From Crocinitomicaceae bacterium (GTDB lineage Bacteria; Bacteroidota; Bacteroidia; Flavobacteriales_D; Crocinitomicaceae), in the NCBI GenBank assembly GCA_023254905.1, contig JALRKF010000148.1, positions 1 through 34,222 on the forward strand: a stretch of DNA of 34,222 nt. Reading direction: 5' to 3'. Below, in pieces: positions 14,967 to 34,222 of the stretch; position 1 is the first letter of the stretch, and every line of letters starts with the position of its first letter. The position numbers and the translations under genes are program-made. The notes under the pieces were generated by a model. That model saw nothing but the letters and a program-made list of their open reading frames with translations, was not told the DNA's origin and searched no databases.

Positions 14967-15013
14967 CTGCGGTTATTTTTATAGATTTGATAATAATTTT
15001 TAAATGTATTCAA

Positions 15014-16255
15014 TTGCAATCAAAAGTCAATACGAATAACAAGAAGAAAATAATAAACGACCCAGTTTATGGTTTTATTTCAATTCCAATAGAGATAATT
15101 TTTGACGTAATTGAACATCCCTACTTTCAGCGTCTTCGACGAATTAAACAACTTGGTCTTACCGACCTTGTTTACCCCGGCGCATTACACACACGATTTC
15201 ACCACGTGATTGGAGCTACTCACTTGATGAACAAGGCTATAGCTACGATACGCAGAAAGGGTAATGAAATAACAAATGAAGAAGAAAAAGCGGTTTTACT
15301 CGCGATACTCCTGCATGACATTGGTCATGGTCCTTTTAGCCACGCACTTGAACACGACATCGTAACTGGTGTTAGTCATGAAGTTATATCAGGATTTTTT
15401 ATTGAAAGATTAAGTCAAGAGTTTGATGGTGAATTAGACCTAACATTGAAGATCTTTCAAAACACTTATCACAAACCATTCTTACATCAACTGGTATCAA
15501 GTCAATTAGATATGGATAGAATGGATTATCTAAACCGTGATAGCTTCTACACGGGCGTGAGTGAAGGGGTAATTGGTAGTGACCGAATTATCGAGATGTT
15601 GGATGTAAAAGATGGAAACCTCGTTCTAGAAGAGAAAGGAATATACTCGATAGAAAAATTCATAGTTGCGAGAAGGCTTATGTATTGGCAAGTTTATTTG
15701 CACAAAACAGTAGTTGCTGCTGAGTTCATGTTAATTCATACACTCCGTCGTGCAAAAGAATTAGTGCAGAATGGAGAGGAACTTTTTGCGAGCCCTTCCT
15801 TAATGTATTTTTTAAAAAACAAGATCGGAATTGAAGACTTTAACAAAGACAATGAAACTCTAGAGAGATTTGCTGATTTGGATGATTATGACATCTGGGG
15901 CGCTATAAAAGTTTGGCAGATGTCGGAGGATATCATTTTGAGAGAATTATCTCAACGGTTAATTGATAGAGAATTATTCAAAATTGAAGTATCAAAGAGT
16001 CCTTTCTCTAAAGATCGTATTAAAGAAATTAACGCTAGCGTAATGGATGGCTTAAATCTGAATGAAGAGCAAGCTAGCTATTTCGTACATTCATACCAAT
16101 TGAGAAATAATGCATACAACGAGGATAAGGAAAATATCAACTTATTATTCAAGGATGGATCAATTTTAGATGTTTCCAAGGCTTCAGATAATTTGAATAT
16201 CTCTGCTCTCTCCAAACCAGTTGAGAAATACTTTCTTAGCTACCCTATTTTCTAG
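15014..16255 (+). CDS. HD-domain phosphohydrolase (dNTPase-like)
   Basis: QRLRRIKQLGLTDLVYPGALHTRFHHVIGATHLM; LLHDIGHGPFSHALEH. The track ORF starts at 14915 inside divergent porX; an in-frame TTG at 15014 avoids that overlap, so the start is uncertain. Confidence 0.85.
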   Translation: MQSKVNTNNKKKIINDPVYGFISIPIEIIFDVIEHPYFQRLRRIKQLGLTDLVYPGALHTRFHHVIGATHLMNKAIATIRRKGNEITNEEEKAVLLAILLHDIGHGPFSHALEHDIVTGVSHEVISGFFIERLSQEFDGELDLTLKIFQNTYHKPFLHQLVSSQLDMDRMDYLNRDSFYTGVSEGVIGSDRIIEMLDVKDGNLVLEEKGIYSIEKFIVARRLMYWQVYLHKTVVAAEFMLIHTLRRAKELVQNGEELFASPSLMYFLKNKIGIEDFNKDNETLERFADLDDYDIWGAIKVWQMSEDIILRELSQRLIDRELFKIEVSKSPFSKDRIKEINASVMDGLNLNEEQASYFVHSYQLRNNAYNEDKENINLLFKDGSILDVSKASDNLNISALSKPVEKYFLSYPIF

Positions 16256-16256
16256 A

Positions 16257-16919
16257 CTATTGCTTACTCAATTTTCCGGACTTCCAATCCTCCAACAACT
16301 TAGCCCAAGCATACGGATTTAAAAGATTATTGCCAGGCAATTGACCCTTGGTGTAGAGTGCAGTATTCATCTGATTCCTTGTGTAAGCATACGATAATCC
16401 TGCATCGGTTTCGAGCCGAGCTGCAATAAATGCTAGACTCTCACCTGATAACTGACGCTGTGCTCTTCTTAACGCATCATCATAAGGATCCATTTCCATA
16501 AAAGCTTTTGCGAATTCCTCCCTGCTCGGCCATGGGTAAACCTCTACTTCAGGTAATTGAAGGGTGTCTGATTCCAACATATGAATTATGGAATATCTTT
16601 TCTCTGTAAGCGTATCGGGAACAATAAATGTAGATGTTCTGTAACCGTAATAACGAAAGAAAAGTGTGTCACCTGGCATAGTAACAAGGGAAAAGAAGCC
16701 GTAATAATCCGAAATAACTCCCCTTCTCTGTGTTCTATCGTACACCGTAGTATAAGGCGCTGGTTCAAGAGTGTTCTCGGCAATAACTACTCCTGATAAT
16801 TGAATCAGAAGACTATCATTATTGGCTATATCCTGAGCCTTAGATCTAACCGAAATTAAAGCCAATATTATCAAAATTATATTTCGAATAAAACCCATAT
16901 TTACAACAATTCTAATCAT
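16257..16919 (-). CDS. carboxypeptidase-like regulatory (CarbopepD_reg-like) domain protein, probably exported
   Basis: N-terminal signal-like helix; LSGVVIAENTLEPAPYTTVYDRTQRRGVISDYYGFFSLVTMPGDTLFFRYYGY. Confidence 0.75.
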   Translation of the reverse strand: MIRIVVNMGFIRNIILIILALISVRSKAQDIANNDSLLIQLSGVVIAENTLEPAPYTTVYDRTQRRGVISDYYGFFSLVTMPGDTLFFRYYGYRTSTFIVPDTLTEKRYSIIHMLESDTLQLPEVEVYPWPSREEFAKAFMEMDPYDDALRRAQRQLSGESLAFIAARLETDAGLSYAYTRNQMNTALYTKGQLPGNNLLNPYAWAKLLEDWKSGKLSKQ

Positions 16920-17001
16920 TTAAAACGATAGCTTGTTTCAATTAAGATTCTTTAACAATTCCTTAGTGCCATAGAATTGAACATATTACACAAATATTTG
17001 C

Positions 17002-17009
17002 TAAATTTG
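17002..17009 (+). promoter_or_regulatory. candidate Bacteroidetes -7 element (TAAATTTG) upstream of guaB
   Basis: Matches TAnnTTTG, with TTG at 16977-16979 (22-nt gap) as a possible -33 element; 34 nt before the ATG at 17044. Confidence 0.45.
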
Positions 17010-17043
17010 CAGGAATTTATTTCATCACAAATAGGTTCAAAAT

Positions 17044-18516
17044 ATGGCTCTTTCCAATATTTCCGAAATCAAAGAAGGCTTAACTTACGACGACGTTCTT
17101 TTGTTACCTGCTTATTCAAAAGTTCTCCCCAAGGATGTTGTGCTCAAAAGCAAGATAACCAGAAACATTGAAGTAAAAACACCTATAGTTTCGGCGGCTA
17201 TGGATACAGTAACTGAAGCTACACTCGCTATTGCTATCGCACAGCAAGGAGGAATTGGTGTTATACACAAGAATATGACCATCCAAGATCAAGCTCTCCA
17301 AGTTAGAAAAGTTAAACGTTCTGAAAGTGGTATGATTTTGGATCCTGTCACTTTGAAAGAAAATGCTGTAGTAAGTGACGCACTTCAATTAATGAAAGAA
17401 AATAAGATCGGGGGTATTCCAGTAGTTGATGACAACTCTGTCCTCAAAGGGATTGTGACGAATCGAGATCTGCGATTTGAAAAAAACAAATCAAGACCGA
17501 TTAACGAAGTAATGACAGCAGATCGTATAATTACTACATCCGAAAATACGAGCTTGTCGGTCGCAGAGGATATCTTACAAGAAAACAAAATTGAAAAACT
17601 TCCTGTAATAGATTCCGAGAATAAATTAATCGGATTGATAACCTTCAGAGATATTATAAAAGTGAAGGAACATCCTAACTCTTGTAAAGATAAATACGGG
17701 CGATTGAGAGTTGCAGCTGCTGTTGGTGTTACACATGACACAATTAAAAGAGTAGATGCACTTGTTGAAGCCGGAGTTGATGCCATAGTCATTGATACAG
17801 CTCATGGACATACTGAGGGGGTGATTGTAAAATTAAAGGAGGTAAAGTCCAATTATCCTGAATTAGATGTAATAGTTGGAAATATTGCAACACCTGAGGC
17901 TGCGAAATTCCTTGTCGATGCAGGAGCTGACGCTGTTAAGGTCGGGATTGGACCTGGTTCAATTTGTACAACTCGAGTTATCGCTGGTGTTGGAGTTCCA
18001 CAGCTAACCGCTGTAAATGATGTTGCAATGGCTTTAGAGGGTACAGGAGTTCCTGTTATTGCTGATGGAGGTATTCGATACACTGGAGATATCGTAAAAG
18101 CAATTGCAGCTGGAGCAGATACTGTAATGGTTGGTTCTATGTTTGCCGGTGTTGAAGAATCGCCGGGCGAAACGATAATTTACCAAGGAAGAAAATTCAA
18201 GACATATCGTGGTATGGGATCGTTAGAAGCGATGCAAAAGGGATCTAAAGACAGATACTTCCAAGATGCCGAAGATGATGTAAAGAAATTAGTTCCAGAA
18301 GGGATCTCTGGCAGAGTACCGTTTAAGGGGAAATTAGTTGAGGTTATGTACCAAATCATTGGGGGATTAAGATCCGGGATGGGATATTGCGGTGCACCAA
18401 CCATAGATAAATTGCAAGGAGCTAAAATGATCCGTATAACGAATGCTGGTTATCAAGAGAGCCATCCCCATGACGTAACGATCACTCGAGAAGCACCAAA
18501 CTACAGTATCAAATAA
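17044..18516 (+). CDS. guaB: inosine-5'-monophosphate dehydrogenase
   Basis: [22 protein letters not shown] domain pair; [51 protein letters not shown]. Confidence 0.97.
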
Positions 18517-18565
18517 TACGTTAAGCCTAGATATTGTAAATTCAAAATTTTAAAATAAATACAGA

Positions 18566-20518
18566 ATGATGAAAAGAATGATTGTTTTAACTTTTGCCAT
18601 GACCTTTGGTTTGGCATCAGCACAGGAGGATCAAGTGATTATGACCGTAGATGGTGAGCCAGTTGTCAAATCAGAGTTCCTGCAGATATACCTGAAAAAC
18701 AATGATGCACCCAGATACGATAAGGAGGCTCTAGATGAGTACATGGACCTTTTTGTTAAATTTAAATTGAAGGTGGCTGAAGCTGAAGCTTTAGGATACG
18801 ATACGATTCCTAAATTAGTGCGAGAACTTAACGGTTACCGCGAGCAGTTGGCTCTTCCATACTTGATAGATTCAACTAAAAATGACGAATTAATTCAGGA
18901 AGCATATGAAAGAATGAAAACAGAAGTTCGCGCTTCTCATATCCTTATACGCGTTGAATCGAATGCTTCTCCTGAGGATACTTTGACTGCATATAATAGA
19001 CTTGTTGCACTTAAAGGCCGTATCGATAAAGGTGAAGATTTTGCATCTGTTGCACGTGGAAAAATGGGAAGTGAAGACCCATCAGCGGTAAAAAATGGTG
19101 GGGATCTCGGCTATTTTACTGCTTTCCAAATGGTATACCCTTTCGAGGAAAAGGCATACAACACCAATGTCGGTGAGATTTCTGAACCATTCAGAACGCG
19201 ATTTGGATACCATATCCTGAAAGTAACGGATAAAAGAGATGCCAGAGGAACAATTGACGCAGCCCATTTAATGATAAGTGTCAAAGAGGATGAGGATGAA
19301 AAAAACATTTCCATTGCAAAAGCCAAAATTGACGAAATATATGGTCTCCTAAAAAATGGAGAGAACTTCGAAGAACTTACTAAAAAGTACTCAGATGACC
19401 CTTCTACTTCGGACAAAGGAGGCGTATTACCATCGTTTGGAACAGGAACAACGACACGCATGGTTCCAGAATTTGAAAACGCTGCTTTTAGCCTGAAGAA
19501 TAATGGTGACATAAGTGAACCAATCAAAACGCAATACGGATACCACATAATTAAACGAATCGCTTGGAAACCATTAGATTCCTTTGAAGTTCTAGAGAGG
19601 CAAATCACGAGTAAAGTAGCGAAAGATGAAAGATCTAAACAAACACAAAACTCTTTTGTTCAAAAGTTAAAAGTTGAATATGGATTCACAACCAACAAAA
19701 AAGAGGCACTAACATGGTTTTACGAGAACATTGATTCAACTTATCACTACGGTAAATTCGATCCTAATTCAATCAATACAAATCTTGAAGTTTTCAAATT
19801 AGGAGATCAAATTTTCACACAACAGGATTTTGCAGATTACCTTTCAAAGAATTTTAGAAGCGCAAGGATGGATCATCCTAAAGTAGTTGTTGATAATCAA
19901 TATGTTCGATGGGAGAAAAAAACGATACTCGACTTCGAAAAAAGTAAACTAGCTGCAAAATATCCTGCATTCAAGGCTCTAATCAATGAATATCATGACG
20001 GAATCCTACTTTATGAGGTTATGTCTGATAAAGTATGGAATAAAGCGATGAAGGATACTAGCGGACTCAAGCAATATCATGCCAATAATAAGGACAATTA
20101 TGTTTGGCAAAAAAGATACAACCTAGAGTTAATTGAAGCTTACAATAAGTCGGATGCGAAAAAGGCTTTTAAGCTTATGAAGAAAGGTAAAATGGATATA
20201 ACTAAAGTTGCGCAAGAGCTCAACTCCGAATCACAACTTAAAGTAAAATATAAGCAGGGGAAGTTTGAAACGACCAATCTTTCCTATCTACATGACGATC
20301 TAAAGGTTAAATTGAACAAACCTTATCAAAAAGAAGATAAGTTCTACATTGTTAGAATAAAAGATATTCTAGAGGCGGGGCCAAAAGAATTTAAGGAAGC
20401 TAAAGGTGCTATTACTTCTGATTATCAAGACTTTTTAGAAAAAGAATGGCTACAAGAATTGAGAGCTAAGCACAGTGTAGAAATCAATTATGACGCATTA
20501 TACTCTCTTGGACAATAA
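18566..20518 (+). CDS. periplasmic peptidylprolyl isomerase (SurA/PpiC-like) with two parvulin domains
   Basis: Signal peptide; two rotamase repeats: ASHILIR...GGDLGYF...FGYHILKV and AHLMISV...GGVLPSF...YGYHIIKR. Confidence 0.92.
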   Translation: MMKRMIVLTFAMTFGLASAQEDQVIMTVDGEPVVKSEFLQIYLKNNDAPRYDKEALDEYMDLFVKFKLKVAEAEALGYDTIPKLVRELNGYREQLALPYLIDSTKNDELIQEAYERMKTEVRASHILIRVESNASPEDTLTAYNRLVALKGRIDKGEDFASVARGKMGSEDPSAVKNGGDLGYFTAFQMVYPFEEKAYNTNVGEISEPFRTRFGYHILKVTDKRDARGTIDAAHLMISVKEDEDEKNISIAKAKIDEIYGLLKNGENFEELTKKYSDDPSTSDKGGVLPSFGTGTTTRMVPEFENAAFSLKNNGDISEPIKTQYGYHIIKRIAWKPLDSFEVLERQITSKVAKDERSKQTQNSFVQKLKVEYGFTTNKKEALTWFYENIDSTYHYGKFDPNSINTNLEVFKLGDQIFTQQDFADYLSKNFRSARMDHPKVVVDNQYVRWEKKTILDFEKSKLAAKYPAFKALINEYHDGILLYEVMSDKVWNKAMKDTSGLKQYHANNKDNYVWQKRYNLELIEAYNKSDAKKAFKLMKKGKMDITKVAQELNSESQLKVKYKQGKFETTNLSYLHDDLKVKLNKPYQKEDKFYIVRIKDILEAGPKEFKEAKGAITSDYQDFLEKEWLQELRAKHSVEINYDALYSLGQ

Positions 20519-21368
20519 ATACTCAAATAAAAAACTGAAGCAGGTTGTAATTTTTTGCAGCCTGCTTTTTTTGTTTTCCTGCATAAGGAAGGGAGAACTT
20601 GTTGCATCTGTAGGGAATATTGAACTCTATGAAAATGACCTTTATACATTAATGAAACAACAAGGGATAAATCCGAATGATTCAACTGTAAGAAATGAAT
20701 TTGTTCTAAATTGGATCGATCGGCAAGTCTATTTGGCCGAATTAATAGCAAGTTACCCTGATGAATACAATATTGTAGAACTCAGATCTAATGAATTTGC
20801 AGCTGACCTGGCAAAATATGAATTAGAAGAGATGATGCTTAGGAAGAAATTGGATACTATTGTAACAGAAGAGGAACTTCTCTCCTATTATAATCGGAAC
20901 TCGGAAGAATTTGCACTTCCTGATTACCTTGTCAAGGGTCTTTACCTCAAAATTCCGAAAGAAACAGACTTTAAGGTCAAAAAGGTTGACAAGTACTTTT
21001 TGTTAAAAAATGATAAAGACCTAGCGCAAGTCGATTCTTATGCTAAACTTTACGCACTAAATTATTATTACAGCGATTCATCATGGATTTATTTCAGCGA
21101 GTTTGCAAAGGACATTCCTGTTAAAAAATACAACCGTGATAATATCGTTCTTAATAGAACTAAAACATATTTCTCTGACGATATGTATACTTATTTTATT
21201 AACATCACTGATTTTAAGCTGAAGGATGAAACACCGCCTATTGACTTTTTAAGGAGAGAAATAAAAGATATTATCATCGGGAAAAGACTACGAGAATTAA
21301 AGGAAAGACGAGAAATTGAAATATTAAAAACACTTAAAGATAAACATGAAATATCTATTAACGTTTAG
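20490..21368 (+). CDS. predicted lipoprotein, SurA-N/PpiC-like chaperone lacking a recognisable parvulin active site
   Basis: Lipobox LFLFSC; VASVGNIELYENDLYTLMKQQG resembles SurA-N; no HIL/GGDLG/GYHI motifs. Overlaps the preceding gene by 29 nt. Confidence 0.7.
   Translation: MTHYTLLDNKYSNKKLKQVVIFCSLLFLFSCIRKGELVASVGNIELYENDLYTLMKQQGINPNDSTVRNEFVLNWIDRQVYLAELIASYPDEYNIVELRSNEFAADLAKYELEEMMLRKKLDTIVTEEELLSYYNRNSEEFALPDYLVKGLYLKIPKETDFKVKKVDKYFLLKNDKDLAQVDSYAKLYALNYYYSDSSWIYFSEFAKDIPVKKYNRDNIVLNRTKTYFSDDMYTYFINITDFKLKDETPPIDFLRREIKDIIIGKRLRELKERREIEILKTLKDKHEISINV
20539..20577 (+). terminator. intrinsic-terminator-like hairpin plus U-tract inside the 5' end of the downstream ORF
   Basis: AGCAGGTTGTAA-TTTT-TTGCAGCCTGCT: 12-bp stem with two G-U wobbles and a TTTT loop, followed by TTTTTTGTTTT. 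Confidence 0.75.
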
Positions 21369-22695
21369 TTTATTTATCATACTAAATACCTCGTTTGGAC
21401 AAGGATCATCTACCATAGATAAAATTGTTGCACAAGTAGGAGATAATATCGTACTACTGTCTGATTTACAAGGGCAACGTATTCAAGCAATACAGGCACA
21501 GGTTGAAATTGACGAGCAATTTGATTGTCGAGTTTTAGAAGAATTAATGTATCAATTCTTGTTATTAAATCAAGCCAAACTAGATAGCCTGGAAGTAAGC
21601 GACGCACAGGTAGATGCCGAAATGGAAAATCGATTAAGGGTTATCGAAGCACAAATCGGAAGCCGCCAGAAAATGGAAGAATTTTATGGTAAAACGGTTA
21701 CTCAAATTAAAAAGGAGTTCAAAGAAAACATTAGAGATCAACTATTAGCGCAGGATATGGAGCGCCAAATAACGAGTGAAGTAAGCGTTACACCGAGAGA
21801 TGTAGAAAATTTTTATAACAACATTCCAAAGGACAGTATACCTTTTATTAATTCAAAGCTTCAATTCCAGCAAATCGTTATTTATCCTGAAATAACTCAA
21901 GCTGACAAACAACTATCTGTAGACAAGCTTACAAAAATCAGAGAAGATATTGTAAGTGGTAAAAAAACATTTAGCACGATGGCCATTATCCACTCTATGG
22001 ATCCAGGATCCTCTAAAAAGGGAGGTGAAATCTCTGCCTCAAGAGGAATGATGGTGCCTCAATTTGAAGCTACTGCTTTTAAAATGGAAATAGGGCAAGT
22101 TTCAGAGGTGTTTGAAACAGATTACGGTTATCATATTCTTCAATTACTCGACCGCAAGGGAGATGATTACAAATGTCGACATATCTTAATTATTCCCGAG
22201 TACTCGGACGATGCAATCCAAATGGCAGCACTTCGTCTTGATTCTGCCTACAAAAAATTAATAGCGAATAAAATTGAGTGGGACGATGCAGTAAGGCTTT
22301 TTTCAAATGATGATGCGACAAAAGAGAACAATGGTATAATTACAAATCCAATAACAGGAGACCAGCAGTGGGATATGGAAGATTTAAATCAAGTGGACCA
22401 ACAGATATACCTATTAACGGATCAACTGGACAAAGGTGATATCTCACAGCCAAGCCTTTACACTAATTTTATGGAACGGAAAGAAGGTGTAAGAATTGTA
22501 CGCCTTATGGAAAGAACTCCCCCGCATACGGCAAACCTAAGGGACGATTATTCACTTATTCAGAAAGCCGCAGAGAATGACAAAAAGCAGAAGATTATCC
22601 AATCATGGATCGCGAGTAAGATCAAAAATGCTTATGTGAAGATTGATTCTGATTATCACTCTTGTGAATTCCGCAATAATTGGCTGAAAGAATAG
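21346..22695 (+). CDS. periplasmic chaperone / peptidylprolyl isomerase SurA-like
   Basis: Signal peptide; IVAQVGDNIVLLSDLQGQRIQ SurA-N; GGEISASRGMMVPQFEATAFKMEIGQVSEVFETDYGYHILQLLDRKGDDYKCRHILI. Confidence 0.9.
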   Translation: MKYLLTFSLFIILNTSFGQGSSTIDKIVAQVGDNIVLLSDLQGQRIQAIQAQVEIDEQFDCRVLEELMYQFLLLNQAKLDSLEVSDAQVDAEMENRLRVIEAQIGSRQKMEEFYGKTVTQIKKEFKENIRDQLLAQDMERQITSEVSVTPRDVENFYNNIPKDSIPFINSKLQFQQIVIYPEITQADKQLSVDKLTKIREDIVSGKKTFSTMAIIHSMDPGSSKKGGEISASRGMMVPQFEATAFKMEIGQVSEVFETDYGYHILQLLDRKGDDYKCRHILIIPEYSDDAIQMAALRLDSAYKKLIANKIEWDDAVRLFSNDDATKENNGIITNPITGDQQWDMEDLNQVDQQIYLLTDQLDKGDISQPSLYTNFMERKEGVRIVRLMERTPPHTANLRDDYSLIQKAAENDKKQKIIQSWIASKIKNAYVKIDSDYHSCEFRNNWLKE

Positions 22696-22727
22696 TTTAA
22701 TTAACTTTAATATTCAAACAAAAGGAT

Positions 22728-23681
22728 ATGTCGGATAAGGAAGTATTAGATGAGTTAGTCATAAAGTATAAAGATCTCAAAAATGAGATTCATAAGGTAA
22801 TAGTTGGCCAAGATGAGGTTGTGGACCAAGTGTTAATCTCTATTTTCTCTCGAGGCCATTGCTTACTTGTAGGAGTTCCTGGATTGGCAAAAACTCTTCT
22901 GGTCAATACAATCTCTGATTGTTTAGGTCTGAGCTTCAACAGAATACAATTTACACCCGATTTGATGCCTTCCGATATTATTGGATCAGAAGTTCTAGAC
23001 GAGCAAAGAAATTTTAAGTTTATCAAAGGTCCTTTATTTTCGAATATAATTCTTGCCGACGAGATAAACAGAACACCTCCAAAAACACAATCGGCTTTGT
23101 TAGAAGCAATGCAGGAGAAAGCTGTAACCGCGTCCGGGAATAATTATAAGCTACCCGAGCCATTCTTCGTCCTTGCAACACAAAATCCAATAGAGCAAGA
23201 AGGTACCTATCCCCTACCAGAAGCACAGCTGGATCGATTCATGTTCAATATCTTCGTTGATTATCCTAGTTTCTCTGAGGAGCTAGCTATTGTAAAAGCT
23301 ACAACTTCAGATGAGCAAATTTCATTGAATCAGATATTATCTGGTGAAGACATATTAAAATTCCAGAATTCCATAAGAAAAATGCCAGTTGCAGATAATG
23401 TTTTGGAATATGCTGTAAAACTTGTTGGTAAAACTCGCATTAATTCAGAAGGGGCACCTAAAGTAACACAGGAATTTATTACTTGGGGAGCAGGACCAAG
23501 AGCCTCACAATACTTAATAGTGGGAGCTAAATGCCATGCAGCCCTTCGAGGAAAGTATTCACCTGACATCGAGGATGTTAAAGCGGTAGCTATGCCAATT
23601 TTACGCCATAGATTGGTCAGAAACTATCGCGCAGAGGCTGAAGGTTATACAATGGAAAAAATTATTGAATCCATTCTATAA
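22728..23681 (+). CDS. MoxR family AAA+ ATPase
   Basis: [88 protein letters not shown]. Confidence 0.95.
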
Positions 23682-23687
23682 TTATTT

Positions 23688-24284
23688 CTAGTCCTTAAGA
23701 ATCAAATAGGGAATTAGTTCATCGTTAAACTTGAAAATAATTGAATAAAGTCCTGCAGGATAATCAAATGGAAATGAAATCTTGTTTTGAGTCATAGGAG
23801 AGATATCGGCGAGTAGTTGTCCGCTGATTGAGAATACTTTAATGCGATTTAAAATTCTATCGCTCCAATTGATAAAAATCGTTCCATCATTAAGCTTTAC
23901 CCTGAAATCGATCTCTGAATCTGTTCCTTGGCTAAAATTTGGTGAATTTGTATATCTCGATCGTATGAATTGATAAGATGCATAAGAAATCGCCGCATGA
24001 CGTGCAGCCTGAACATCTATTGGGACAGCAATTCCATCGAATGAACATATATAGTCATGAAAGGTATCTCCGAGAAGAAATGTCTGCCGTGTTTGATCAA
24101 ATGCTGCCCAAGAGTCATAAACAATTATAGAATGATGGTACAAATTTCGCGCATGAACCGTTGGTCTGGCATAATCATTTCTGATTGCCTCCAATAATAT
24201 ATTGTTCCATTCACGGGCTACCGATTGTTGAGAAAATGACAGGCCTGATAGTCGCAAGAGGACTAACAAAAGAAGCCCTTTCAC
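23688..24284 (-). pseudogene. probable internally deleted remnant of a large secreted haloperoxidase-like protein with T9SS-type C-terminal sorting domain
   Basis: N-terminal QQSVAREWNNILLEAIRNDYARPTVHARNLYHHSIIVYDSWAAFD, as remembered from much longer Bacteroidetes proteins, then directly a CTD-like tail (IKVFSISGQLLADISPM...YPAGLYSIIFKFND). Only 198 aa. Confidence 0.6.
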
Positions 24285-24430
24285 TTTAAGGGTTATTGGT
24301 CTCTTATTACTTATAAGACTAAGAAAGTAGGAAAACTAAGGGAATTCTTAAAGAGAATTAAACCATTTTCTGGTGAAGAGATCCAACTTATAACAAACGT
24401 ATGTCATTTTGTTAAAAACCCATGTAGCGC

Positions 24431-24454
24431 TGTTAATTGAAGCCTCAATTAACA
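24431..24454. repeat. perfect 10-bp inverted repeat with 4-nt loop
   Basis: TGTTAATTGA-AGCC-TCAATTAACA in the ~400-bp intergenic region; no adjacent U-tract. Confidence 0.6.
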
Positions 24455-24682
24455 AGTTTAGGTTTCCCGGAGTGATCTGATTTCCACGGTTCGGAATTTT
24501 CCTCTAACATTAGTCTGTGGTCTATCATCCTAATCCTGAGCGTCACCTGAATACAATAGTCCTAAGCTTCAAAATTAAACTACATGGGCCTTCTTACGAA
24601 GTAGACCGATAGAGTCGCTCGTGGCGCTTCGATCATAGTCCAAATTAAAGAAAAAAACTTACTTTCGTTTACTTTTTTCGAG

Positions 24683-25465
24683 ATGATATTCCAACTCAAG
24701 AAAATACTATACCGAATCTTACCAGAGAGCAGTTATCTGAGATGGTTGCATAGAGGTTTTTACTTTCTATTTTGGATCGGTGCGTTAAAAAAAGATGAGC
24801 GATTTAAATTCCATTACATGGTAAAAAAACTCATCGAATCAAACTATACTGTTCTTGATATTGGCGCTAACTTGGGATATTTCTCAAGAAACTTCAGTGA
24901 TCTCACAAAGAATGGAAAGGTTATTTCAATTGAGCCAGTTCGTCCCTTCTTTGAAACACTCCAATATTTTCTTGGCAGTCGAAAGAATTTGACCCTATTT
25001 AATTATGCTTTAGGACAAGAGGAAGGAACCATAACGATGGTTATGCCAACTTCAAATGGTATAATGCGCACAGGCCTTCCGCACATTGCAGAATCTGAGG
25101 AAGAAAAAATGCAACATCGAACACATGATGTAGAAATCAAACGTCCAAGTGAACTTCTAAAAGATCTCACTAGAATTGATTACATAAAATGTGATATCGA
25201 AGGTTATGAGCGAACGGTATTTGAGGAGATGAAAGGTTTGATAGAAAAACATCAACCAATTATTCAAATTGAAATAGATCCAAAAAACCGAGGTTTCATG
25301 TTCGAGTATTTCTCAGATTTAGGCTACATCCAATACGGTATAGCAAAATTCAGGATTGTAAAGGAAATTCCTGGAGAACAACAAGAGCAAGGTGATTACA
25401 TCTTCGTTCCCAAATCACAGGATCAAGTATTCGAAAAGAGAATGAGATCGAAAGGAGTACTTTAA
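24683..25465 (+). CDS. FkbM family methyltransferase
   Basis: YTVLDIGANLGYFSRNFSDLTKNGKVISIEPVRPFFETL; DYIKCDIEGYERTVFEEM; QIEIDP. Confidence 0.9.
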   Translation: MIFQLKKILYRILPESSYLRWLHRGFYFLFWIGALKKDERFKFHYMVKKLIESNYTVLDIGANLGYFSRNFSDLTKNGKVISIEPVRPFFETLQYFLGSRKNLTLFNYALGQEEGTITMVMPTSNGIMRTGLPHIAESEEEKMQHRTHDVEIKRPSELLKDLTRIDYIKCDIEGYERTVFEEMKGLIEKHQPIIQIEIDPKNRGFMFEYFSDLGYIQYGIAKFRIVKEIPGEQQEQGDYIFVPKSQDQVFEKRMRSKGVL

Positions 25466-26319
25466 GTCCTAGATCCAGGATTAAAGTTCTCAAAACCCTT
25501 TATATGAATATCGCGCTGAGGAAATGGAATTACTAAATCGTTCTCTTGTAATTTCTTGTAAGCTATCTTCCTTAAGTCTGACTTGGTGCGCTCAATACTG
25601 AAAATATCCTTCGTCCAAAATATCATTTCAAACTGAAGTGATGACTCACCAAATTCGGTAAACCATACATAGGGCTTTGGATTACTTATAATATCATAAG
25701 TTTCTTCCATAGCCTCCTCAAGACAGCTGATTACCTTTTCTATATTCGAACCATAAGCAACGCCAACACTAACACTAAATCTGACTTGATCAAAACTATG
25801 AGACCAATTGATGACTTTCTCTGAAACAAACTTGGAATTAGGTATAATAATAGTCACATCCTCTCTAGTTCTGAGTTCTGTGCTTCTCAAGTTTATTTCA
25901 ACCACCTTTCCAACAACTCCTTCTACTTCAAGAATATCTCCAATTTTAATAGAGCCTTCAAAAAGTAGAAACAAGCCTGAAACTAGATCCATAAAAACAT
26001 TCTGCAACCCCAGACCTAATCCAACTAAAAGTGCTGTAGAACCGAAAAGTATAATAGTCACATCCGCTCCTATCACCTCAAGCATTATCACAATAGTGAT
26101 AACCCAAATAAAGTACTTAACAATAAGGAAAATAGAGTTTCTACGCTTGCTGTCGATCTTGTCAATCAAGAATCTAGGTCGTAAAATTGCTTTTCTCAGA
26201 ACCTTTATTGATAGCCAAGAAACACTTGCAATAAAGAGAGCAAAAAGTAAGTTACCCATGAGCAATTTAAATTCTCCGATAGCAAATAATTCATAATTTA
26301 AAAAGTCACTCCAGTCCAT
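25462..26319 (-). CDS. MscS family mechanosensitive ion channel
   Basis: LLVGLGLGLQNVFMDLVSGLFLLFEGSIKIGDILEVEGVVGKVVEINLRSTELRTREDVTIIIPNSKFVSEKVINWSH. Confidence 0.92.
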   Translation of the reverse strand: MDWSDFLNYELFAIGEFKLLMGNLLFALFIASVSWLSIKVLRKAILRPRFLIDKIDSKRRNSIFLIVKYFIWVITIVIMLEVIGADVTIILFGSTALLVGLGLGLQNVFMDLVSGLFLLFEGSIKIGDILEVEGVVGKVVEINLRSTELRTREDVTIIIPNSKFVSEKVINWSHSFDQVRFSVSVGVAYGSNIEKVISCLEEAMEETYDIISNPKPYVWFTEFGESSLQFEMIFWTKDIFSIERTKSDLRKIAYKKLQENDLVIPFPQRDIHIKGFENFNPGSRT

Positions 26320-26368
26320 ATTCTCTCAATGTTAAATTCTTATATTCGTCACACGCAAATTTAATTAA

Positions 26369-26935
26369 ATGGCAACTACATCAGATATTAAGAACGGACT
26401 TTGTATTAACCTAAATGAGAAACTTTATCAAATTATTGAATTTCAACATGTGAAGCCGGGAAAAGGACCAGCATTTGTTCGTACAAAAATGCGTCAGATA
26501 GAATCGGGCAAAGTTCTGGACCATACGTTTTCAGCAGGACATAAAATTGAGATTGTTCGTATTGAAAATCGCGAATACCAATACTTATATCAAGATGGTG
26601 AATTCTATGTATTCATGAATAATCAAACTTTTGAGCAGGTAAATATTCAAAATTCAATGGTGGATAAACCTGAATTCTTGACTGAAGGTATGGTTTGTAA
26701 TATCTTATTTCATGCGGAAGAAGAAATGCCGTTAGTGTTGGAATTACCAATGTATGTTATCTCGGAAGTAACCTATACCGAACCAGGGATCAAAGGCGAC
26801 ACAGCTACGAACACATTGAAACCAGCAACCATTGCAACAGGAGCTGAAGTTCGTGTCCCGCTATTCATCAACACTGGTGAAATTATCAAAGTAGATACGC
26901 GATCAGGAGAATATGTCGAAAGGGTAAAAGAATAG
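26369..26935 (+). CDS. efp: elongation factor P
   Basis: MATTSDIKNGLCINLNEKLYQIIEFQHVKPGKGPAFVRTKMRQIESGKVLDHTFSAG; VRVPLFINTGEIIKVDTRSGEYVERV. Confidence 0.97.
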   Translation: MATTSDIKNGLCINLNEKLYQIIEFQHVKPGKGPAFVRTKMRQIESGKVLDHTFSAGHKIEIVRIENREYQYLYQDGEFYVFMNNQTFEQVNIQNSMVDKPEFLTEGMVCNILFHAEEEMPLVLELPMYVISEVTYTEPGIKGDTATNTLKPATIATGAEVRVPLFINTGEIIKVDTRSGEYVERVKE

Positions 26936-27105
26936 GTTAAAAGAGAATTAACGATTCTGTCTTTGTTTACATTGATAGCATTAAATGTAACAACTTAATG
27001 TATTGAATAATATGGTATTTACCGCTATACGTAGACTCCAATTAACAGATTTCTCGTATTCGTAATTTGATTTTTAATTGAAGTCTATTTCGTAACTTTA
27101 TCCTC

Positions 27106-27570
27106 ATGAGTGAGGATTTCGAAAACCCCATAGATAAAGACAAAACAACTGATTCTCCCAATTCTCTGGAGTATGGTCATCATTTAGGTTCAGCAATTGT
27201 CAAGCCGGAAGATGAGGGTAAATTAAAAGGTAGAGCTGTTTCAGCAATGGAGCACCAAACAGATATGCAATTAGATCAGATCTATCAGCAAATGCAATTG
27301 CTCGCAGATCAGGCCAAAAAATTAAATGATCGAAAGTTAATTTCTACATTTATTTATCAAGCCGAGATGCGTTTCGAACCTTTGATTAATCATATTTATC
27401 ACCTTTACCAAAAAGAAGATAAAGCATTTTTACTGTCTCTTATCGCTCCGAATCAGTGGGGTCGTTCAAAGAGATCATTTGAATTTATTGCAACAGTTCG
27501 ACTTCTTGCAGACCATACGTGGGAGATCCAAGAAAAAAATGTAGAGGTTGATTTAGAGAATCTATTTTAA
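27106..27570 (+). CDS. DUF2452-type conserved protein
   Basis: LEYGHHLGSAIVKPEDEGKLKGRAVSAMEHQTDMQLDQIYQQMQLLADQA; FEPLINHIYHLYQKED; SLIAPNQWG. Confidence 0.75.
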   Translation: MSEDFENPIDKDKTTDSPNSLEYGHHLGSAIVKPEDEGKLKGRAVSAMEHQTDMQLDQIYQQMQLLADQAKKLNDRKLISTFIYQAEMRFEPLINHIYHLYQKEDKAFLLSLIAPNQWGRSKRSFEFIATVRLLADHTWEIQEKNVEVDLENLF

Positions 27571-28325
27571 CGAGTAAAAACCCAGTCCTTTTCACTGGAT
27601 AAATTTGCATCGAACTGATAACCTCCCGTATTAAATAATTTTATTTCTTCTGGATCACTAACATTATTCTGAACAATAAACCTTGCCATGGAACCTCTGG
27701 CTTTCTTCGCAAAAACCATCACAACCTTGTATTGACCGTCTTTAAATTCCTTAAATATTGGTGTAATTATCTTTGCTTTCAATTTCTTTGGATGAACAGC
27801 CTTGAAATATTCATTTGAGGCAACATTAACAATAACTTCGGACTCTTCTTGATTGAGTGCCTGACAGAGTTTATCCCCCCAAAACTGATACAAATTTTTC
27901 TTTGTGGCAGTTACCTCCCACTTCGTCCCCATTTCAAGTCTGTAAGGAAATAAGATGTCCAAAGGTTTCAAAATCCCATAAAGTCCTGATAAAATTCTTA
28001 CTTTATCTTGAGCAATCTGAAGTTCTTTTTCGGTTAAAGAACTAGAGTCGAATCCCCTGTATGCCTCACCATTAAATGATGCAATAGTCTGCTGAACCTC
28101 TCCAGCAAACTCAAAATTTTCATCCCATTTTTGGAATCTTTCAAAATTAAGTTGTGCAATATCATCTGATACGTTCATCAAATCCCTAATTTTTTTAGGA
28201 GAAAATCTTTTGAGCTTTTTCATCAAAAAATCAGCCTCATTTATGAAAATTGGTCGAGTGTATAAATCTGTTTTAACCTTAATATTTGGGCTAATTGACT
28301 TCGCTGGAGATAAAAGAACTTTCAT
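27567..28325 (-). CDS. yaaA: peroxide stress protein YaaA
   Basis: MKVLLSPAKSI; FNGEAYRGFDSSSLTEKELQIAQDKVRILSGLYGILKPLDILFPYRLEMGTKW. Confidence 0.95.
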   Translation of the reverse strand: MKVLLSPAKSISPNIKVKTDLYTRPIFINEADFLMKKLKRFSPKKIRDLMNVSDDIAQLNFERFQKWDENFEFAGEVQQTIASFNGEAYRGFDSSSLTEKELQIAQDKVRILSGLYGILKPLDILFPYRLEMGTKWEVTATKKNLYQFWGDKLCQALNQEESEVIVNVASNEYFKAVHPKKLKAKIITPIFKEFKDGQYKVVMVFAKKARGSMARFIVQNNVSDPEEIKLFNTGGYQFDANLSSEKDWVFTR

Positions 28326-28376
28326 AATAAGATAAACTTTGGTTAAAATTAATCAATATCAAATTATTTTGTCTAT

Positions 28377-28428
28377 TTTTCCCAATAATGAAATGTTTTC
28401 CCAATATGAGAATATGTTCATTCATTGG
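28377..28428. promoter_or_regulatory. operator/enhancer-like repeat cluster upstream of the sigma54 activator gene
   Basis: Direct repeat TTTTCCCAATA at 28377-28387 and 28396-28406 (19-nt period), plus a related inverted copy TTCATTCATTGG at 28417-28428. Confidence 0.45.
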
Positions 28429-28495
28429 AGCAAAATGTTAATATGGCACTCCTCATTATAATTATTAAAGATATATTCAGTCAAACATTTAGAAA

Positions 28496-29827
28496 ATGAG
28501 AATTATTATAGCAGAAGATGATGATTGGTACGCAAAATTTATTGAATACAATGTTAACCTAAGATTTGATTGGGAAGTAACCATTGCTCAAACTTTTCAA
28601 GAGCTTGAAAATGTTCTTCACAATTCCCCCGAAATTATCACCCTGGATTACAATCTGCCTGACATGGATGGAGAGAAAGCGCTTCAAACCATCAAAAGAG
28701 TTTCTCCCTCTTCTAAAATTGTAATCATTTCAGGGCAAAATGATGTTAAAACAGCGATGGCCCTTCTAAGCTCAGGAGCAACAGATTATATTGTTAAGGA
28801 TACGGATACAAAAGAAAGGATGTGGCAATCACTACAATCCATTTCTGATCAAATCAATTTAGAAAAACGTGTTGAAACATTAGAGGATGAGATCAAAACA
28901 AAATTCGACACAACCAAAAATTTAATTGGAAACCATCCATCTTTCAATAAAATCCATCAACTCATACACAAGGCCAACAAAAGTGCTATCAATATATCTA
29001 TAAGCGGCGAGACTGGTACCGGTAAAGAAATGGTTGCGAAAGCCATACATTATAATTCACCCTTAAGTTCATCTCCATTTCAGGCGGTCAATCTATCGGC
29101 ACTGCCACATAATTTAATAGAGAGTGAATTGTTTGGACATGAAAAAGGAGCCTTCACTGGTGCAGATAAGCGTCGCATAGGGAAATTCGAAGCAGCAAAA
29201 AATGGGACACTATTTTTAGATGAAATAGCAGAAATTCCTCAAGACATACAAGTTAAACTCTTACGTGTATTGCAAGAAAGAGAATTTCAACGTGTCGGAT
29301 CAAATGACAGCATAAAATTAAACTGTAGAATTGTAACTGCTACGCATAAAAATCTGCTTGAACTTATAGAGAAAGGTGATTTTAGACAAGACCTCTACTA
29401 CAGACTGGTAGGCTTACCTATTCATTTACCTGCCCTTCGTGAGCGTGGAAATGACATCCTATTATTGTCCAAACATTTCATGGAAACCTTCAGCAAAGAA
29501 AATAAAGTAAAAGCACCCAGCCTGTCAGAGGATGCACGTCAAAAATTGCTTAACCATGTTTACCCTGGAAATGTTCGTGAATTGAAATCTGTGATTGACC
29601 TTGCATGTGTTCTTTGTGAGAACAATATTATAAAACCTCAAGATATCACTTTTCAATCAAGTGGCAGTCTAGAAAATCTGCTTAACGCTAATTTATCACT
29701 TAAAGAGATAAATGAACGTATTATACTAGACCGTCTTCAAAAGACTAATAACAACATAAAAGTGGTCGCAACAGAACTAGGGATTGGAAAATCAACGATT
29801 TACCGAATGTTAAAAGAAACAGAATGA
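28496..29827 (+). CDS. sigma54-dependent response regulator (NtrC family: REC-AAA+-Fis HTH)
   Basis: REC ([26 protein letters not shown]); AAA+ ([31 protein letters not shown] with intact GAFTGA); C-terminal Fis-type HTH ([19 protein letters not shown]). Confidence 0.95.
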
Positions 29828-29958
29828 CCAGAGTAAAATTGAATCAATTTATTGAATTGTGTAAAAAATCACAACACCTATTTTTTACTAATGAACTGAC
29901 GGAGAACTCAGATGTTGAATCAAATAAAAGGATAAATAGAATCTTTACGATAAGTTAA
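29824..29958 (+). CDS. small ORF (44 aa) in ATGA overlap with the sigma54 activator stop and 2 nt before the hybrid kinase start
   Basis: [44 protein letters not shown]; below the length cutoff of the ORF track. Confidence 0.45.
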   Translation: MTRVKLNQFIELCKKSQHLFFTNELTENSDVESNKRINRIFTIS

Positions 29959-29960
29959 AA

Positions 29961-32900
29961 ATGACCATCCCTAAGGACATAAAGAAAATTATTGATCGTG
30001 AGATATCTGCTCGAGAAAATGCAGAAAAAAAGCTCGAAGAAAAGTCTCTTGAGTTGCTTAACAAAACACAACAACTAGAAGAATTGAATACCTCCCTCGA
30101 AAAGGAAGTTTCCAAAAGAACCGAAAAAATTAAGAGACGGGAAGAGCAACTTCGGGTACTTTTTGACCAACACCCCTCCGCTTCTATTGTATATGATTTA
30201 GACTCTCTAAAAATATTGGCAGCAAACCAAACTGCCCTTGATATATATGGTTACACTCAAAAAGAGTTTCGTGATATGTCCATTTTGGATATGAACCATG
30301 AAAAAGAACATAAAAGAATAAAAAATCATATCGAATTACTCAGCAAGCAGAAAACAGAACCACAAAAATGGTGTCATATTCTCAAAAATGGAGAATTAAG
30401 AACGGTTACTGTTACAGGAAATCCAATTGTATTTGGCGACAAAAAAGCACGCCTTGTCATCATCAAGGACATTACTCATGAACAGGAGATTTTACAAAGG
30501 CTTGAAGACCAGGAAAAACAATTTAAAAATCTTGTAGAACGAACTAGTGATGCTATTTACCGAACTGATGAAGATGGTAATTTTATTTATGCTAATCCGA
30601 ACTGTGAGTCATTATTTGAATGCACCATTGCCGAACTAAGTAATATGAATATCTACGATTTGGTGAGCAAAGAATATAAAGAGAGAGTTCGTAACTTTTA
30701 TGCTTATCAAGCTCAGAACAAGATATCGAATACAAAAACTGAATTTCCAATAACAAAAACCAACGGGGAAAATATTTGGATTGAACAAACCGTAGATTTT
30801 ATACCAGCTGATGAAGGTAGTTCTGAATTCATCTCAGTAACCCGAGATATTACAGAAAAACGCATCCTTGAAAAGAGTCTTCTTAGAAGTGAAGAAAAAT
30901 ACCGTTCAATTATCGAAAATATGGAACTCGGTATCTTGGAAGTTGATACCAAAGGGAAAATTTTAAAAGCATACCCTAAGTTTTGCAAATTGACTGGTTA
31001 TGAAGAGAAAGAGCTGATTGGGAAGATTGCTTCAGAGATTTTTCTGGATGAGGTCACTAAAGATAAAATGCACAAGGAGACGCAAAAACGAACAACAGGC
31101 GAAACAAGTGTTTATGAAATAGAACTTAAAAAGAAAGATGGATCTAAAATTTGGGTGATGATCAGTGCCGCACCCTACTACAACGAGAAGAATAGAATAA
31201 CAGGATCGGTTGGTGTGCACCTTGATATAACCAGACGTAAGACTAGTGAAAAACAATTATTTTTACTCTCACAGTTTCCTGAATTAAATCCATATCCTGT
31301 TATCCGATATAAATTGGGCAAGAACGAACTACTTTACGCAAATAAGCACGCAAAAAGTTTTCTTAAAAGTATGCAGCGGGAAACTCAAAAAAAGAATAAT
31401 TGGGCTAAGTTTGTATACAGTAAGGGTGTTTTCCAAGAGTTTCGATGGAACAATAGCACTTACAGATTCAATCGCGTAGAGGAGCCAGAACTGGGCATTA
31501 TAAATATCTATTCAACAGATATAACAGAAATAAAAGAACTTCAAAATAAATTGCGTGGTGCGATAAAAAAGGCAGAAAATTTATCAAAAGCAAAAGATCT
31601 TTTCCTGGCTAATATGAGTCATGAGATTAGAACTCCCATGAATGCAATAATCGGTTTATCGGAGGTTCTCAGTGAAAGCGAACTCTCAGATTTTCAGAGG
31701 ACAAGTCTCGATAGAATAAGATCTGCCTCAGACAATCTACTTCACCTTATAAATGAAATCCTTGATTTAAGTAAGGTTGAAAGCAATGAGATTGAATTAA
31801 ACAATTCATTTCATTACCTAGAAAAAACTTTTAAAAATTCTAAAGAATTATTCGAAATTGAAGCAGACAAAAAGAATATTAAACTCATTTATGATTCGAA
31901 TATCGACCCTGAGCTTGAATTCTTCACTGACAAGAATCGACTAAATCAAGTATTAATAAATCTTTTGGGTAATGCCATTAAATTTACAGATACGGGACAA
32001 GTTACACTCAAAATTGAGCAAGAAGAGGAATTGAAGGAATCATTGACTGTAAATATCTCAGTTATAGACACTGGAATTGGTATTCCGAAAAAAGATTTGA
32101 AAACTATTTTTGAGAACTTCAGCCAAGCAAGAAATAACGATGAGAACACGTATGGAGGAACAGGCTTAGGGTTGTCAATTGCAAAAAAAATCCTTTTGTT
32201 GATGAATTCTGAATTAAAGGTAAATTCGAAACTCGGAGAGGGATCTACTTTTTATTTTACCTTAAAAATGCCATATCGTAGAAACAGTTCGAGCGTTGAA
32301 CTGAATACAATTGAACAGAACATAATTAAGATCGAAAATTGTAAGATACTTGTGGCGGAGGACAACTTAACGAATCAATTTTTAATAAAAACAATCCTAG
32401 AAAAACATGGTATTTCAACCACTGTGGCTTCAAATGGAATTGAAGCTTTAAAAATTTTGGAGAAAGAGAACTTTGATATTATCTTGATGGATATGAGGAT
32501 GCCTCAACTTGATGGTTTAGAGACCACAAAGGTAATCAGAAAAGAGTTTAAGAATTCTACCACACCCATCATTGCATTAACCGCAAACGCCTCCGAAAAT
32601 GACCGAAAGCTCTGTTTAGAGGCGGGAATGAATGAATTTATTGTAAAACCATTTAAACCTAATGATCTGATCGCTATGATAGAAAAAATTAACGAAGAAA
32701 ATAATAAATCGAGTTTTCTCGATATTGAGAAGTTGAATGAATCGACATATAATGATCCAGTTTTCAGAGAGAAAATGATTGAAATTTTCATTAATGACTC
32801 TGAAAAGAGATGCCTCGAGATTGAGAATTTGATAAAAAATAATGAGTTGGATAAGATAAGTGTTATTGCGCACAGTATGAAGCCAGCCCTTGGTCATTTA

Positions 32901-33071
32901 GCACATGAAAAATTAGTTTTAATGGCAAATGAAATAGAGAATGAACAAGATTTGTCGAAAAAGGGATTCGTTGAGCTGTGTCAGGAACTCATATCGTACA
33001 CAAGAGATTTAATTGAAGAACTTAAAAACATTCCCAAAATGGAAAAACCACAACCAAACCGAGAGGAATAA
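29961..33071 (+). CDS. soluble multi-PAS hybrid histidine kinase: PAS(3-4)-HisKA-HATPase_c-REC-HPt
   Basis: PAS repeats (LRVLFDQHPSASIVYDL, FKNLVERTSDAIYRTDEDGNFIYANPN, YRSIIENMELGILEVDTKGKIL); FLANMSHEIRTPMNAIIG; YGGTGLGLSIAKKI; REC ILVAEDNLTNQ/IILMDMRMPQLDG; HPt VIAHSMKPALGHL. No evident TM segment. Confidence 0.93.
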   Translation: MTIPKDIKKIIDREISARENAEKKLEEKSLELLNKTQQLEELNTSLEKEVSKRTEKIKRREEQLRVLFDQHPSASIVYDLDSLKILAANQTALDIYGYTQKEFRDMSILDMNHEKEHKRIKNHIELLSKQKTEPQKWCHILKNGELRTVTVTGNPIVFGDKKARLVIIKDITHEQEILQRLEDQEKQFKNLVERTSDAIYRTDEDGNFIYANPNCESLFECTIAELSNMNIYDLVSKEYKERVRNFYAYQAQNKISNTKTEFPITKTNGENIWIEQTVDFIPADEGSSEFISVTRDITEKRILEKSLLRSEEKYRSIIENMELGILEVDTKGKILKAYPKFCKLTGYEEKELIGKIASEIFLDEVTKDKMHKETQKRTTGETSVYEIELKKKDGSKIWVMISAAPYYNEKNRITGSVGVHLDITRRKTSEKQLFLLSQFPELNPYPVIRYKLGKNELLYANKHAKSFLKSMQRETQKKNNWAKFVYSKGVFQEFRWNNSTYRFNRVEEPELGIINIYSTDITEIKELQNKLRGAIKKAENLSKAKDLFLANMSHEIRTPMNAIIGLSEVLSESELSDFQRTSLDRIRSASDNLLHLINEILDLSKVESNEIELNNSFHYLEKTFKNSKELFEIEADKKNIKLIYDSNIDPELEFFTDKNRLNQVLINLLGNAIKFTDTGQVTLKIEQEEELKESLTVNISVIDTGIGIPKKDLKTIFENFSQARNNDENTYGGTGLGLSIAKKILLLMNSELKVNSKLGEGSTFYFTLKMPYRRNSSSVELNTIEQNIIKIENCKILVAEDNLTNQFLIKTILEKHGISTTVASNGIEALKILEKENFDIILMDMRMPQLDGLETTKVIRKEFKNSTTPIIALTANASENDRKLCLEAGMNEFIVKPFKPNDLIAMIEKINEENNKSSFLDIEKLNESTYNDPVFREKMIEIFINDSEKRCLEIENLIKNNELDKISVIAHSMKPALGHLAHEKLVLMANEIENEQDLSKKGFVELCQELISYTRDLIEELKNIPKMEKPQPNREE

Positions 33072-33117
33072 GGTAATATTAATCATAAATTATATGGTTT
33101 TTATAGGATTTTTATTT

Positions 33118-33132
33118 TGGCATCAGAATTGC
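33118..33132 (+). promoter_or_regulatory. candidate sigma54 (RpoN) -24/-12 promoter upstream of the stand-alone REC gene
   Basis: TGGCATCAGAATTGC: GG at 33119-33120 and GC at 33131-33132 with exactly 10 nt between; followed by T; ATG at 33164, 31 nt after the GC. Confidence 0.65.
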
Positions 33133-33163
33133 TATATTTAACTTCAGTCCCAAACTATTCGCT

Positions 33164-33592
33164 ATGCACCGGATAAACGCTTTTATTTTAGAAGATGACC
33201 GTTTTTATGCTCAAATGATAAGTACTCATTTAGAGAGGGAAGGTATGGTTACTCGTATTTTCAGCAATGAACAGGAATGTCTTAGTGCACTCATCTCTTC
33301 TCCCCCTCAATTACTCATATTAGATCACAAACTTGAAAATTCAACCGGTCTAGAAATTTTAGAGGCTATCAACACCTTACAACAAGGAACAAACGTGATT
33401 TATTTGTCTGCACAAGAAAGGTACAATGTTGTCTTAAAGGCACTGAAATACGGCGCCGCAGATTATGTAGAAAAAGGAGATGGTGCTTTTAGACAATTAA
33501 ATACTATCATCAACAAATTAAGAAAGCATACCAATGATTTCAACAATCCCCTTAATCTGAATAAATATCGTTTAGACACTGATTTAAATTAA
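33164..33592 (+). CDS. stand-alone receiver (REC) domain response regulator
   Basis: INAFILEDDRFYAQMI acidic pocket; LLILDHKLENSTGLEIL phosphoacceptor Asp; VIYLSAQE; YGAADYVEKGDG conserved Lys. No output domain. Confidence 0.88.
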   Translation: MHRINAFILEDDRFYAQMISTHLEREGMVTRIFSNEQECLSALISSPPQLLILDHKLENSTGLEILEAINTLQQGTNVIYLSAQERYNVVLKALKYGAADYVEKGDGAFRQLNTIINKLRKHTNDFNNPLNLNKYRLDTDLN

Positions 33593-34222
33593 GACACCTA
33601 TAAGTAGCGTTATTACAATTACCCCGATTAGATTTAAAACGAAGCCATATTTGGCCATTTCTTGAATACTGAGTTGGCCTGAGGAAAAAATAACTGCGTT
33701 TGGAGGAGTTCCAACTGGAAGCATAAAGGCACAACTCGATGCCAAAGTTATCGGCAAACAAAACTGAAGTATATCAACTGAAGTGTTAGCGGCGAACTGA
33801 GCAACTACTGGCACAAGAACCGAAACCAAAGCAAGGTTAGACATTAGCTCTGTTCCGAAAATAGATATGAGGACAAGGATTCCCGTCATAACAATGACGG
33901 AACCACCCGAGAAATAATTGAACGAAGATGCGATAAAATCGATAACACCATTTTTATCAAACATTATTGCAAGTGCCATGCCTCCGCCGAAAAGGATTAA
34001 AATTCCCCAGGCAATTTTACGCGTATCTTTCCATTCAAGCAATGTGCTTGATTCTTTCGAAGGAATAAAAAATAAAAGAATCGCACCCATAACTGCAACA
34101 CCTTCATCGGTGTAAGATATACCTAAATATCCAGTAATGGGATCTCTGAATGTCCAAAGCAGAACCACGACTAGAAATAATATAATTACGCGTAACTGAT
34201 TGCTTGTCCATTTAATACGTTC
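33584..34222 (-). CDS. SLC13/DASS-type anion permease, partial (5' end beyond the window)
   Basis: Reading frame stays open to base 34222 (...ERIKWTSNQLRVIILFLVVVLLWTFRDPITG); ILILFGGGMALAIMFDKNGVIDFIA; SSCAFMLPVGTPPNAVIFSSGQL. Confidence 0.85.
   Translation of the reverse strand, partial: ERIKWTSNQLRVIILFLVVVLLWTFRDPITGYLGISYTDEGVAVMGAILLFFIPSKESSTLLEWKDTRKIAWGILILFGGGMALAIMFDKNGVIDFIASSFNYFSGGSVIVMTGILVLISIFGTELMSNLALVSVLVPVVAQFAANTSVDILQFCLPITLASSCAFMLPVGTPPNAVIFSSGQLSIQEMAKYGFVLNLIGVIVITLLIGVLI

Follow-up and report, generated by a model that had tools for sequence, protein, structure and literature searches.

The question raised by this locus is whether a transcription stop signal can be written into the first codons of a gene in the middle of an operon, and what it would do there. 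The DNA analysed (the window) comprises 34,222 nucleotides (nt), positions 1 to 34,222 of contig JALRKF010000148.1 from a Crocinitomicaceae bacterium (assembly GCA_023254905.1), and the element in question is a hairpin followed by a T-rich tract at the junction of two forward-strand genes. The first codes for a long parvulin-type peptidyl-prolyl isomerase (PPIase) of 650 amino acids (18566-20518; Pfam Rotamase_3, 1.8e-52; stop codon TAA at 20516-20518). The second, a 292-codon open reading frame (ORF) at 20490-21368, codes for a SurA/PEB4-like lipoprotein whose signal-peptide codons form the hairpin. From comparative sequence analysis, the element is very probably an intrinsic terminator that lies at the normal distance 3' of the PPIase stop, is overprinted on the first codons of the next gene, and partly ends transcripts.

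The hairpin and the ordinary terminators of the genus

The initial annotation described a terminator-like hairpin in the signal-peptide codons of the ORF at 20490-21368, and the sequence was found to be as described: AGCAGGTTGTAA (20539-20550), TTTT (20551-20554), TTGCAGCCTGCT (20555-20566) and TTTTTTGTTTT (20567-20577). The stem extends further, to 14 base pairs (20537-20550 with 20555-20568), around a UUUU loop (20551-20554), and contains a conserved core of 24 nt (20541-20564). The complete hairpin (20537-20568, + strand) is followed by the U-tract TTTTGTTTT (20569-20577, + strand), which codes for part of the hydrophobic stretch of the signal peptide. The codons concerned read K-Q-V-V-I-F-C-S-L-L-F-L-F-S-C, with the Cys codon of the lipobox at 20580-20582. 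Folded alone, the hairpin had a free energy (dG) of -19.9 kcal/mol (z -6.4), none of 200 shuffled sequences being equally stable, and it clearly outranked the other 16 terminator-like sites of positions 15,000-34,222. No Rfam match was found in 18,500-23,700 and no stable alternative fold at the hairpin region; a riboswitch was rejected on these grounds.

In the sister genome G014 (2.31 Mb), the scan used on the window detected 448 strong sites of a hairpin followed by T, with 139 on the largest contig versus 13 per strand in a Markov control. The distance from stop codon to stem in G014 peaked sharply at 15-26 nt (124 of 215), and U-tracts mostly began 45-54 nt 3' of the stop, with genes called by a home-made program that miscalls non-ATG starts. 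Few stems lay closer than about 12 nt to a stop, as expected if the stop codon is still occupied by a ribosome. In the window the stem begins 18 nt, and the U-tract 50 nt, 3' of the PPIase stop, and both the position and the composition of the hairpin are those of the ordinary terminators predicted for the genus. The element combines a GC-containing stem of at least about 7 bp, a short loop, an adjoining U-tract and an organism-typical position, the features by which intrinsic terminators are recognized.

Selection on pairing, U-tract and reading frame

Orthologs were found in 80 of 99 related genomes, and their carriers were placed in the Crocinitomicaceae, cultured Brumimicrobium species among them. 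The core could be aligned without gaps in 58 Crocinitomicaceae loci, giving 43 distinct cores for covariation analysis. Among the latter, 95.1% of cells were paired; when the partner was slid by 1-3 bases as a control, only 15-50% were paired. Double changes occurred in eight of the 10 core pairs (42 cells versus 12.9 after shuffling), and none of 500 shuffles reached the observed value. Since the rows are related, these values are not independent probabilities, a weakness covered by a parsimony count of about 23 double pairing-keeping changes on a tree from the rest of the protein, and by the unrelated stems found elsewhere (see below). The broken pairs seen in the tree analysis were mostly those that close the loop.

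Synonymous recoding, in which the protein is held constant, gave a mean z of -4.7 over 41 loci, and none of 1000 recoded versions of the window's locus folded as well. When every one of the 1,971 gene starts in G014 was scored in this way, the mean was -0.11 (standard deviation 1.13). The U-tract was also conserved: at the four positions 3' of the core the T fraction was 0.86, 0.98, 0.88 and 0.79 (58 loci), and Phe codons in the U-tract were TTT in 85 of 90 cases (94%), compared with 427 of 669 (64%) in the gene body. By these measures the stem and the U-tract are conserved beyond the protein constraint. The initial annotation had suggested looking for compensatory changes in relatives, and would have counted a stem not conserved beyond the protein against its reading; covariation, parsimony and recoding all came out in favour of that reading.

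The U-richness of signal peptides and the conservation of the peptide QAG..VSL could speak for chance pairing or a by-product of protein constraint; the probability of this explanation is nevertheless negligible. A chance hairpin was rejected by the shuffles, by the recoded sequences (which rarely or never matched the natural ones), by the covariation that 0 of 500 shuffles attained, and by the G014 gene-start control, which was near zero. Protein constraint alone was rejected by the recoding and because other genera have stems of unrelated sequence at this position.

It was also considered that the hairpin might not cause termination but serve a PPIase mRNA already trimmed by RNases, protecting or fixing its 3' end. 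Stable stems past a stop codon can act as a barrier to 3' exonucleases. Effects of stems on stability beside termination have been described (PMC9045158). Protection has no need of a U-tract, however, and the preference for TTT over TTC (94% versus 64%) and the T fractions of 0.79-0.98 indicate that this tract is selected, making the explanation improbable. The A fraction at the nearest four positions 5' of the core was only 0.24-0.57, in contrast to the T fraction 3' of it. With its T-rich 3' flank and A-poor 5' flank the element would act mainly in one direction, and a bidirectional terminator was rejected.

According to the initial annotation, the lipoprotein gene starts within the last 29 nt of the PPIase gene. 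The in-frame ATG at 20490-20492 (+ strand), which is the mechanical ORF start, is indeed 29 nt from the end of the stop codon, but it is rare in relatives, most of which lack it. The conserved and probable start is instead the TTG at 20508-20510 (+ strand), which overlaps the PPIase stop by 11 nt. A start was present 5' of the stem in all 58 loci (TTG at -11 in 51, GTG at -8 in 8, with some loci counted under each, and otherwise ATG), and the GTG stands in at loci where the TTG has been lost (L014, L044 and L049). The PPIase Leu codon that holds the TTG was CTT in 17 of 22 Leu rows, against a CTT share of 20% for Leu over the gene body. The retention of TTG at -11, together with this CTT bias, points to TTG 20508 as the true lipoprotein start.

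All but one of the 58 loci had the core in codon phase 0 (57 of 58), and its distance to the PPIase stop was 19 or 22 nt in 56; the stem began 16-22 nt past that stop. The ORF frame and the lipobox were conserved and the spacing was frame-preserving, suggesting that the terminator is read by ribosomes as part of a translated frame. An ACATAT-like stretch was seen to recur between the PPIase stop and the stem (L004-L012 and other loci of the genus); it codes for Thr/Ile-Tyr of the n-region, and may be coding or regulatory.

Recurrence in relatives and at other gene junctions

In the genus of the window, the embedded hairpin was present in every examined locus except that of genome G001. It was also found in six further Crocinitomicaceae genera (g4, g6, g7, which is Brumimicrobium, g8, g13 and g14), and two genomes from other families (L054 and L063) carried unrelated embedded stems. 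Five genera (g5, g9, g12, g20 and g23) had a terminator of unrelated stem sequence between the two genes, 5' of the lipoprotein ATG; the one in g12 was missed by the scan and read from the sequence by eye. Because it is embedded in some genera, and intergenic with a different sequence in others, the predicted terminator is a property of the gene junction, overlap with codons being one of its states.

Fourteen of the terminators predicted in G014 had an ORF start no more than 150 nt away, as called by the above program, and four junctions were traced in relatives. The rimM gene, directly 3' of rpsP, carries GCGAAACTTCAC..GTGAAGTTTCGC followed by UGUUUUU in nearly all genomes of the genus examined, including that of the window (L137, G000:C79:15025-15549). 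This hairpin overlies the conserved HGFKG codons (L112-L139), and in compensatory exchanges CTTCAC/GTGAAG became CTCCAC/GTGGAG, which also changed Glu to Gly. In lptC, 3' of a TPR gene, ACCTG...CAGGT lies in the lipoprotein signal peptide (L305-L334; mean z -2.7, 28 loci), with many paired changes across the genus. The signal peptide of an lptA/OstA-like gene 3' of purA contains AAAAGTGCGC..GCGCACTTTT (L335-L364; mean z -2.6, 30 loci), and this hairpin is present in the window's own genome (L361, G000:C60:52851-54374). The names TPR and purA were assigned by eye from translations in one genome. Together with the PPIase/lipoprotein junction, at least four junctions thus bear overprinted hairpins genus-wide. 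The recurrence of such hairpins at unrelated genes, three of which are genes for exported proteins, argues for a shared design.

The lptA/OstA-like ORFs often had no in-frame ATG 5' of the hairpin. Further single-genome candidates were seen in G014 (C4:330732, C6:27352, C5:273069, C1 minus strand 218806 and C3:285268), at genes for a hydrolase, a membrane-anchored protein, coaBC and others. For another signal-peptide hairpin of G014 (contig C2, 5231), the gene was found in just 3 of 45 relatives.

These comparisons also bear on the idea of a translational element, whereby a hairpin 27-30 nt past the TTG would slow or aid initiation at a weak start, or pause elongation for export. The constant distance from a non-ATG start and the location in a signal peptide are in line with this. 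The terminators of five genera are situated 5' of the start codon, however, and rimM, which codes for a cytosolic protein and has an ATG start, carries one too; moreover, the conserved U-tract is left unexplained. Such a role is therefore very improbable.

Probable operon context and possible control by translation

The PPIase, lipoprotein, SurA and MoxR genes, which the initial annotation had placed in line, are indeed joined by overlapping or very short junctions. The lipoprotein gene shares 23 nt with a SurA-like parvulin PPIase gene (21346-22695; Pfam/NCBIfam), which is followed by the gene of a MoxR-family AAA+ ATPase (22728-23681; Pfam AAA_3, 5.4e-63). On the other side, the IMP dehydrogenase gene (17044-18516; Pfam IMPDH, 4.3e-161) ends 49 nt 5' of the PPIase gene. 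All five genes lie on the + strand, neighbours overlapping or being less than 50 nt apart. A Bacteroidota-type promoter-like site (TTG ... TAAATTTG; 16977-17009, + strand), a pattern match to the consensus only, lies 35 nt 5' of the IMPDH start; the Bacteroidota promoter consensus is TTTG/TANNTTTG (PMC6847099). This site is likely to be the operon promoter, and IMPDH the probable first gene of the transcript.

No match to a TTG-N17-22-TANNTTTG promoter was found at -250 to +30 of the PPIase/lipoprotein junction in the 58 loci. A separate promoter for the downstream genes was rejected, as the isolated TANNTTTG at 20099 has no -33 element and no match lies near the junction. The overlaps and short gaps, together with the lack of a nearby promoter match, would fit co-transcription across the junction. 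The lipoprotein itself had no Pfam or NCBIfam match. Its predicted structure (pLDDT 83.8) gave PEB4/SurA-like chaperones as the top PDB matches (E 6e-7, with low TM-scores), and it is one of a Bacteroidota family of SurA/PEB4-like lipoproteins for which neither database has a model.

If the element is an overprinted terminator, polymerase reading IMPDH-PPIase would leave the PPIase stop about 50 nt behind and pause at the U-tract, and the hairpin would fold once the terminating ribosome frees the stem. A fraction of transcripts would end there, and the remainder would run on into lipoprotein-SurA-MoxR. Because only these remaining transcripts would pass the terminator, the lipoprotein, SurA and MoxR are likely to be made in lower amount than the PPIase. 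We infer both termination and its efficiency from the features described. A ribosome restarting at the overlapping TTG and entering the lipoprotein ORF would keep the hairpin open, so that more restart would mean less termination; the probability that restart gates termination in this way was judged to be just short of even.

A leaky internal terminator that is blind to translation is also a real possibility, though one with somewhat less than an even chance. At such a site a fixed fraction of transcripts would stop, the ratio would be constant, and the embedding in codons would be a consequence of tight gene packing. The intergenic versions of five genera lie outside the translated frame of the downstream gene, as this explanation would have it, and in Clostridia, transcript ratios have been shown to depend on intergenic internal terminators (PMC9045158). 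In contrast, the frame lock, the start overlapping the PPIase stop, and the stem just past the terminating ribosome provide the opportunity for translational control.

Several points weigh against the overprinted terminator or its control by ribosomes. No terminator was found at the junction in three Crocinitomicaceae genera (g3, g17 and g21) or in a second g5 genome, and most other families are without the hairpin. In G001, an AT-rich member of the genus (about 26-28% GC), three of the four hairpins are lost, the present one among them (loci L016, L308 and L339), and the hairpin is therefore not indispensable. Furthermore, a ribosome-gated terminator and a leaky one would look alike in sequence, and in a strongly coupled organism a translated terminator might hardly ever act.

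Known systems share parts of the arrangement. In pil1 of S. gallolyticus, frames that end at least 28 nt before an intrinsic terminator leave it active, and frames reaching through it suppress it (PMC3894217). A translated frame likewise appears to reach through the terminator here, but it belongs to the following gene of the operon, and control by translation is a proposal. In B. subtilis, bmrB codes for a 53-amino-acid leader with an intrinsic terminator in its coding region and a proposed anti-terminator that responds to ribosome-targeting antibiotics (PMC4191407). The codons of a translated frame are here too predicted to form a terminator limiting downstream transcription, but no alternative fold was seen and the frame is that of a lipoprotein precursor. 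Attenuation of the pil1 and bmrB kind uses a regulatory leader peptide 5' of the operon; the frame at this junction is a structural lipoprotein gene inside it.

Partial termination between operon genes accounts for ABC transporter stoichiometry in Clostridia, where stem-loops were sought in intergenic regions of more than 50 bp (PMC9045158). The present terminator would similarly set a ratio between genes of an operon, but from inside the downstream gene. In a study of E. coli EF-P, ORF-internal intrinsic terminators acted when translation lagged, rsxC and narY being examined as sites of premature termination (PMC5021804). The site described here is also within coding sequence; unlike those in rsxC and narY, it lies at a gene junction, where it is conserved, covaries and is locked to the frame. 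No report of an arrangement in which the frame through the terminator is the regulated gene itself, and no usable Bacteroidota Term-seq paper, was found in the open-licence literature.

The results indicate that, at several junctions of one genus and also in cultured Brumimicrobium, selection acts on the same bases for a coding frame and for a regulatory RNA element at once. Such sites tend to be thrown out by programs that look for genes as well as by those that look for terminators. They are natural, sequence-verified places for probing transcription-translation coupling in Bacteroidota, a phylum that is not on the runaway list of PMC13323073. Signal peptides suit overprinting because the U-tract spells Phe/Leu, and their tolerance of sequence change and use of these residues suggests that they are natural hosts for terminators. 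It may tentatively be proposed that overprinted first-codon terminators of Crocinitomicaceae, many of them in signal-peptide codons, are translation-gated valves, at which a gene's first round of translation, coupled to the upstream stop, decides whether the mRNA is completed. Such valves would work without a leader peptide, ligand or protein factor, and would be shared by several envelope-biogenesis genes and rimM. Since relatives keep both the hairpin and the frame, and three other junctions repeat the arrangement, these bacteria appear to throttle expression in mid-operon by stop signals hidden inside genes.
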